Part shown: positions 6,885 to 8,108 of the stretch, in pieces
Numbering within the stretch: position 1 is the first letter of the stretch
Layout: every line of letters starts with the position of its first letter
NCBI RefSeq assembly: GCF_028728065.1
Contig: NZ_CP117812.1
Location: 496,001-560,000, forward strand
From: Lentisphaera profundi
GTDB taxonomy: Bacteria; Verrucomicrobiota; Lentisphaeria; Lentisphaerales; Lentisphaeraceae
DNA: 64,000 nucleotides
Direction of reading: 5' to 3'
Program-made: the position numbers and the translations under genes
Notes under the pieces: model-generated
Databases searched by the model: none
What the model saw: only the letters and a program-made list of their open reading frames with translations
What the model was told of the DNA's origin: nothing

Positions 6885-7234
6885 GGGGCCCCTTTAATGG
6901 GTGGTAACTTAAGCACATGCCGAAGGTATGTAGTATGGTAGCCACCGGATTTATCCGGTGGTTAATGAGAAAAAAATGATATTCATGCCGAAGGTATGAA
7001 GGAAACGCTCTGCAGCGTACCTTCGGCACGCACGATGCTGTTATTCAAACACCACGGACTTACGTCCATGGCTACATTCCTAAGCTCTTCGAGCTCAAAT
7101 ATCTCTTAAATTCTACTCATTAGAGGCTCTGCCCCAGTATAAATACCTCCGGTGGCCGAGGAGCCCTCGGGGCCCTGCTAAAAAAGGTAGCAGCACGTAT
7201 AAATACCCTTAAGTTCCCATCCATTAGGGGCCCC
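6885..7234 (+). repeat. Composite hairpin element: 250-bp type A unit joined to a type B unit
   Basis: The left end at 6885-6913 (GGGGCCCC, then AATGG, ending AACTTAAG) is mirrored at 7208-7234 (CTTAAGTTCCC, CCATTAGGGGCCCC). Inside are palindromes: CATGCCGAAGGTATG twice, CCACCGGATTTATCCGGTGG, a CACGGACTTACGTCCATGG stem and a TTCGAGCTCAA stem. A degenerate inner right end (CTTAAATTC ... CATTAGAGGC) near 7104-7130 suggests a 250-bp type A unit followed by a type B unit (7131-7225, with ccgaggagccctcgg). Related copies are at 10628, 33798, 45826 and 63727. No coding capacity is seen. Confidence 0.75.
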
Positions 7235-7236
7235 TT

Positions 7237-7320
7237 GCTGGGCGCCCCGCATTCCATACGGATAAAATCCATTCTCCTTACTGGGAGCATCGTGCTGGGA
7301 GCCCCGCATTCCAATGCGGA
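7237..7320 (+). repeat. Two REP-like palindromes downstream of the transposase gene
   Basis: Units at 7237-7263 (GCTGGGCGCCCCGCATTCCA then a variant TACGG) and 7294-7320 (GCTGGGAGCCCCGCATTCCA, then ATGCGGA) share the core CCGCATTCCAATGCGG. A partial copy (CTGGGAGCA) is at 7281. They lie within 90 bp of the 3' end of the gene that encodes a REP-associated transposase, the typical position of such palindromes. Confidence 0.75.
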
Positions 7321-7325
7321 AGCTT

Positions 7326-8108
7326 TTACAGTACGGCACTCCAAGGCCATTTACCTTCAGAATTTACCAATCCCGCTTTTACGGGATTCTCCAGGATATA
7401 GTGGATCGCATTTTGAAAATGGTTTTCATTTCTGATAAAGCGATCCCAATATTCATTTTGCCATAGGTATATTTTTGAGCTGGGCGCCCCGCATTCCAAT
7501 GCGGATGGTTTAGTCCTGTTCTTTAGGTCGGATTCATTTTCACCTAAAGTTGATTTGTAGTTTAAAAAAGCTTTTCGATCCTGCAAGTATGACTCACGGT
7601 ATTGTTGCCATAAATCCTTGTCTTTTTGGACAAAGTAAGTGACATGCTTTTTCCACGACGCAACAAGCTGGGATAGAGGCCAACTTGGGTACGTTTTGAT
7701 CAATAAATGAACGTGATTTGGCATGACGACATAGGCAATGAGTTCATAGCGTTCGCCATTAAAGTATTCCCAAGCTTCAATTTGTTTTTGGGCTACTTTT
7801 GGAGTTTGAAGAAGGCATGAGCCATGTGATTGATCGAGAAAATTTTCAGTCAATTTTCTTTTTTTCGTCATTTCATCCGCATTGGAATGCGGTGCTCCCA
7901 GCGGGGATAGGTCGGCTTTTCTTTTTTTCGTCATTTCATCCGCATTGGAATGCGGTGCTCCCAGCTTTAAAGCATCAATGGGCAGACTGTCAGCTAAGCG
8001 ATAGGTGACCATCTGATATTTATCACTCGCATCATAGTGAGGGATGAAGCCTCTACGGTGCCAATTACGTGCATCTTCAAATTCTTTTCTCTTCATCCAT
8101 TTCTCCAA
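7326..8108 (-). CDS. REP-associated tyrosine transposase (RAYT, Y1 family)
   Basis: The 260-residue product carries the Y1/IS200-type signature MPNHVHLLIK (HUH metal-binding histidines) at about 127-136, preceded by YELIAYVV. A later motif, NEYWDRFIRNENHFQNAIHY, resembles the helix carrying the catalytic tyrosine in RAYTs, and IHYILENPVKAGLV is also typical of the family. Such proteins nick and move single-stranded REP palindromes. Oddly, the gene itself contains three REP-like units: two in a 63-bp tandem repeat giving the 21-residue repeat starting LGAPHSNADEMTKKRK (about residues 49-90), and one at 7479-7507 giving SALECGAPS. The frame stays open, so the gene may still work. It stands alone on this strand. 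Confidence 0.82.
   Translation of the reverse strand: MEKWMKRKEFEDARNWHRRGFIPHYDASDKYQMVTYRLADSLPIDALKLGAPHSNADEMTKKRKADLSPLGAPHSNADEMTKKRKLTENFLDQSHGSCLLQTPKVAQKQIEAWEYFNGERYELIAYVVMPNHVHLLIKTYPSWPLSQLVASWKKHVTYFVQKDKDLWQQYRESYLQDRKAFLNYKSTLGENESDLKNRTKPSALECGAPSSKIYLWQNEYWDRFIRNENHFQNAIHYILENPVKAGLVNSEGKWPWSAVL
7479..7507 (-). repeat. REP-like palindrome inside the RAYT coding region
   Basis: GCTGGGCGCCCCGCATTCCA followed by ATGCGGATG matches the downstream REP units and is read as SALECGAPS in the transposase. It lies in the C-terminal third, between the HUH region and the putative tyrosine helix. Confidence 0.75.
7854..7965 (-). repeat. Tandem pair of 49-bp REP-containing repeats inside the RAYT gene
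   Basis: Two identical 49-bp copies at 7854-7902 and 7917-7965 start 63 bp apart (21 codons). Each contains CCGCATTGGAATGCGG followed by TGCTCCCAGC. Because the period is a multiple of three, the reading frame is kept. Confidence 0.85.

Follow-up and report, generated by a model that had tools for sequence, protein, structure and literature searches.

In-frame copies of its own REP unit at two loops of a REP-associated tyrosine transposase gene from Lentisphaera profundi

Results

The DNA analysed here, referred to as the window, is a stretch of 64 kb (G000:C2:496001-560000) from the 5.46-Mb, two-contig genome of Lentisphaera profundi (G000). It carries a gene which, judged from its sequence, is a REP-associated tyrosine transposase (RAYT/TnpA_REP), a putative nuclease-strand transferase acting on single-stranded DNA (Table 1). 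The open reading frame 7326-8108(-) matched Pfam Y1_Tnp (E=1.8e-7) and also NCBIfam REP_Tyr_transpos (E=1.8e-22), where its 79.8 bits fell 0.2 bits short of the cut-off of 80. When the AlphaFold model of the protein (mean pLDDT 84.4) was compared with the PDB, the top fold match was 4ER8, the E. coli TnpA_REP complexed with a REP hairpin (E 8e-6). These data agree with the preliminary description, in which the gene was already called a RAYT. The motifs PNHVH, WQNEYWD, and YILENP are all present, so that the HUH Y1 transposase fold is accompanied by intact HUH and Tyr motifs. The gene is also flanked by REPs that are dispersed genome-wide, and within 2 kb these lie on its downstream side only. 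Its true start is probably the ATG at 8096 rather than the annotated TTG at 8108.

Table 1. Features of the RAYT locus (positions refer to the window)
Feature	Position	Strand	Remarks
RAYT/TnpA_REP gene	7326..8096	(-)	256 aa from ATG 8096; TTG 8108 is an alternative start
HUH motif PNHVH	7707..7721	(-)	residues 126-130; invariant or nearly so in alignment
Predicted catalytic Tyr233	7398..7400	(-)	in YILENP; from alignment
Internal REP, site 1, copy A	7937..7965	(-)	GCTGGGAGCACCGCATTCCAATGCGGATG; read LGAPHSNADE, residues 45-54
Internal REP, site 1, copy B	7874..7902	(-)	identical to copy A; residues 66-75
Internal REP, site 2	7479..7507	(+)	opposite orientation to gene; read SALECGAPS, residues 198-206
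Intact flanking REP	7294..7320	(+)	just downstream of the RAYT stop codon
Half unit	7281..7292	(+)	foot only, CTGGGAGCATCG
Degenerate flanking REP	7237..7262	(+)	
49-bp exact direct repeat, copy 1	7917..7965	(-)	start-to-start spacing 63 bp
49-bp exact direct repeat, copy 2	7854..7902	(-)	REP plus EMTKKRK codons

The REP unit consists of a foot and a hairpin (CTGGGAGCNCCGCATTCCAATGCGG). Its layout is C|T-GGGAGC-N-CCGCATT-CC-AATGCGG, in which six to seven base pairs form a stem behind the foot, and it folds as single-stranded DNA. Three intact copies lie within the reading frame, and behind the stop codon one intact and one degenerate copy were found, which is the number of units counted in the preliminary description (three inside, two after the gene). 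Every internal copy is in frame and the peptides had been read correctly, LGAPHSNADE twice and SALECGAPS once. In contrast, the two copies of site 1 had been described as a perfect 63-bp tandem; here, we found that the identity covers 49 bp only and that the 14 bp separating these repeats are unrelated and not repeated. The REP orientation at site 1 is opposite to that at site 2. When the whole window was searched for the 16-bp core with up to three mismatches, six copies (five of them perfect) were detected vs 0.8 expected by chance, and none of 100 shuffles reached six. An Rfam search over the RAYT gene yielded no known RNA. The region 6900-7160 is rich in other palindromes, for instance CATGCCGAAGGTATG at 6916 and 6984, which possibly represent another repeat family. 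Segment 6916-6961 (-) gave a weak Rfam match to Acido-Lenti-1 RNA (RF01687; 30.4 bits, gathering 37, E 1.5e-4).

Pattern searches of the genome yielded about 29 REP copies which keep foot and hairpin and belong to the same family as the internal and flanking units. Nearly all of them have GGGAG or GGGCG as their foot, and CT directly precedes it on the 5' side in 23 of the 25 distinct REP contexts. The copies show a strong strand bias (23 reverse, 6 forward), and an array of six copies in one orientation, spaced by about 99-118 bp, is located at G000:C1:1041005-1041574. A genome search for REP copies in other proteins, as proposed in the preliminary description, detected no further copy inside a convincing gene when the open frames were judged by eye (two weak copies lacked a locus). 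The frames over the remaining copies are small or spurious-looking, and a 430-aa frame overlapping a poor two-mismatch match (L098) was taken as chance.

In the structural model, site 1 is located before helix A, after the first strand, and site 2 after the HUH strand, ahead of the WQxEYWD motif. AF2 pLDDT values were 53-63 over the REP-coded segments vs 92-98 over the catalytic core. These predictions fit flexible surface loops beside a high-confidence core, as had been suggested before.

A syntenic RAYT was found in genome G002, where it adjoins the same amidohydrolase gene (93% identical) as the window RAYT. At site 1 this ortholog has one intact REP with a half copy before it. Its site-2 REP is decayed (19/27), and here STLEHKDPS is read in place of SALECGAPS. 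Thus, DNA decay and peptide change went together in this ortholog, and a conserved peptide without REP-like DNA, which the preliminary description had named as evidence for a protein domain, was not seen there. From the protein alignment the site-2 insert appeared to be absent from the ortholog, as in a lineage-specific gain, but this was rejected because the DNA alignment shows the decayed REP. In a genome of the same genus (G001:C1:282500-289500, L234) both neighbour genes are present, and between them we found neither a RAYT nor a REP, but an insertion-sequence-like transposase gene. Ten REP copies exist elsewhere in this genome, which suggests that the RAYT was lost and the REPs persisted.

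For comparison, we used about 100 RAYTs; a foot-plus-hairpin scan covered 95 RAYTs. Within the RAYT domain, REP-like units were detected at sites 1 and 2 only, the boundaries of which had been defined after the first cases had been seen; matches at the N- and C-termini fall in extensions of unsure coding status. Neighbouring open reading frames, a mixed and partly spurious control, gave 0.25 matches per kb. In homologs of the same family and class, the internal segments matched the REPs flanking their own gene with scores of 20-45 vs mostly 9-14 for swapped flanks. The own-flank match ranked among the top 5% across all loci for 21 of the 29 internal REPs (26 RAYT loci), and the eight that missed this range include L103, L114, L149, L167, and L118. 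In a set drawn from many phyla, 12/80 loci had own-flank matches vs 3/238 swapped-flank controls; two of these 12 matches (L154, L171) take in a duplicate gene copy that lies in the flank.

The same two loops of other RAYTs hold different REPs in different frames, which are read as different peptides. Each of the three reading frames is used, and at some loci the frame is broken at the internal REP. The counts of frames and orientations are not independent of descent: one phase is shared by 16 of 22 units at site 2, and survey-wide this site was - in 22 cases and + in six, all six genes with + also carrying -. Since one phase prevails at site 2, the peptides are not fully neutral. Throughout the clade of the window gene, site-1 units are invariably + and site-2 units invariably -, and many RAYTs have site 2 alone. 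In a quick tree the site-2 label was clustered, yet it changed at least six times on strongly supported branches (18 changes in all), which does not favour one insertion in the common ancestor of all RAYTs.

Four RAYT relics were chosen by inspection for partial tblastn matches. L117, located in the window's own genome (G000:C1:750898-754197), retains only about residues 55-158, with the site-1 REP at one end and a broken site-2 REP at the other. This fragment of about 100 residues sits between a RhuM-like and an ExbD-like gene (names assigned by eye). What remains of L121 and L124 begins with the REP of site 2, and the scar of L121 is a fused double-foot REP (TTGGGCGCACCGCCGGCGCTCCCAA). In L127 the deletion begins shortly after the site-1 REP and ends within the core, not at a REP. 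L125 starts at a contig edge and is uninformative on ends. The syntenic counterpart of L121 in G000 holds just a REP array.

Discussion

Our data are best explained by a REPtron-type RAYT that has its cognate REP hairpin incorporated in its own gene at two surface loops, as tolerated insertions and not as a protein domain; we assign this reading a probability of about 0.78. Comparison at the DNA level identifies the internal segments as REPs read in frame at two sites and favours DNA insertions over a protein domain, because other RAYTs have different peptides in these loops, use all three frames, and carry units that usually match their own flanking REPs. Such REPs may have entered the gene when the RAYT cut and joined its own REPs at the home locus, presumably at the C|T by the foot, which is the cleavage dinucleotide of the E. 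coli TnpA_REP (PMC8266576). The WQxEYWD segment, which lies beyond site 2, would read the foot. Ordinary tandem duplication could then have produced the 63-bp-spaced repeat of 49 bp at site 1. Insertions out of frame or beyond the two loops would be lost by selection, and those in frame would be tolerated as flexible linkers in an enzyme that probably retains its nuclease activity. Tolerance acting as a filter does not by itself account for the orientation. For REPs to recur in one loop with one orientation, insertion must have been targeted there repeatedly, or else the units are an ancient inheritance and have changed in concert.

The internal REPs might also be a self-limiting device or a weak point of the gene, a role already raised in the preliminary description. 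According to this idea, which we regard as unlikely but as the strongest alternative, a REP-to-REP deletion, carried out by the RAYT or by recombination, excises part of the gene and leaves a scar. Such a deletion would remove part of the gene because the catalytic HUH half is bracketed by REPs whose feet point outward, + at site 1 and - at site 2. This arrangement is constant in the window's clade and site 2 is mostly - in the survey. Moreover, relics L117, L121, L124, and L127 have ends at internal REPs, the double-foot scar of L121 is of the type that, according to Quentin 2018 (PMC6006769), could arise by central deletion between inverted REPs, and REPs alone remain at the syntenic G000 site. 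On the other hand, there are only about four relics, L127 has no REP at the far end of its deletion, and ordinary recombination between repeats would yield the same ends. In addition, the window gene is intact, and G001 has neither an orthologous RAYT nor a REP scar. Thus, fragment ends that fall mostly at internal REPs are consistent with a self-limiting role but are no proof of it, and the earlier suggestion has gained indirect evidence while remaining unproven. It is somewhat more doubtful still that the foot-outward REPs flanking the HUH half serve, via REP-to-REP deletion, as a built-in off switch and as a source of double-foot REPs.

Compared with insertion and tolerance, retention of the internal REPs for RNA or single-stranded DNA control appears improbable. 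Here, the complementary sites 1 and 2 would close the HUH region in a long-range mRNA duplex, or the RAYT would bind its own transcript or gene. Folding of the whole reading frame as RNA did pair site 1 with site 2 (z = -5.1, 20 shuffles), but this pairing is automatic given the opposite REP orientations. The site-1 codons are identical to those of the ortholog in 9/10 cases vs 86/140 elsewhere, a difference that is not significant (Fisher p = 0.09). Moreover, the site-2 hairpin has decayed in the G002 ortholog, and the many RAYTs with site 2 alone do not fit such a duplex. It is hardly credible that the segments are an ancestral protein motif (LGAP.../SALECGAPS) whose DNA is palindromic by coincidence: G-A-P or A-G-x-P-A peptides do occur at these loops in many RAYTs, but frame and own-flank data refute this explanation, since one DNA unit is read in all three frames and both orientations and internal units match the flanks of each gene, and REP copies also exist outside genes and the peptide is not conserved in the ortholog.

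The window gene is a well-resolved case of a transposase coding sequence that holds its own substrate, with a syntenic ortholog and a gene-less relative at the same place. Its two-site pattern of opposite orientations, together with the REP-ended fragments, makes self-limitation or loss of RAYT-REP systems testable in a simple assay.

Protein genes with short palindromes inserted in frame, some of them as tandem or grouped copies, have been described before for intragenic REPs (Opitutus terrae and others) and for Rickettsia palindromic elements (PMC3733652). Those elements sit in unrelated genes, many of them for DNA repair, whereas the gene studied here encodes the transposase of the REP itself. 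With the E. coli REPtron TnpA_REP (PDB 4ER8; PMC8266576) the window RAYT shares the fold, the HUH and Tyr motifs, the foot plus hairpin, and the C|T by the foot. The E. coli foot, in contrast, is GTAG, and internal REP loops are not reported for its subclass.

The interpretation put forward in the preliminary description is supported, but it had overlooked that frame-preserving REPs inside tnpA_REP genes were published as a unique feature of TnpA_Y1 subclass 2.4, which corresponds to Bertels RAYT group 4 (Quentin et al. 2018, PMC6006769). According to the main text of that paper, these insertions generally lie between HuH and Y, where the protein is predicted to be peripheral, and this "generally" may cover further insertion sites in its supplement. 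A literature search yielded no activity reports for subclass 2.4 enzymes. The window RAYT resembles this subclass in its NHVH, WQ, and YIxxNP motifs, its REPtron context, and its predicted peripheral loop, and its site 2 corresponds to the long variable frame-kept REP insertion between b3 and aC. The motifs NH[IFV]H, WQ, and YIxNNP (Table 1 of PMC6006769) were recovered, YILENP having E for N at one position. However, the foot is GGGAG/GGGCG and not 5' GT[AG]G, and because of this difference we do not count the window RAYT as a strict subclass 2.4 member. It also differs in its Lentisphaerales host, in the opposite REP orientations at the two sites, and, as far as the main text goes, in a second site, which is located before helix A and carries a tandem duplication. 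In the main texts of the literature, supplements aside, we found neither site 1 nor the orientation rule nor REP-ended fragments described earlier, and within this scope site 1 with its duplication, the recurrent foot-outward orientation, and RAYT fragments ending mostly at internal REPs are possibly new. Taken together, in-frame REPs in RAYT genes are already on record, and the window gene is a further case which adds detail on sites, orientation, and broken copies.
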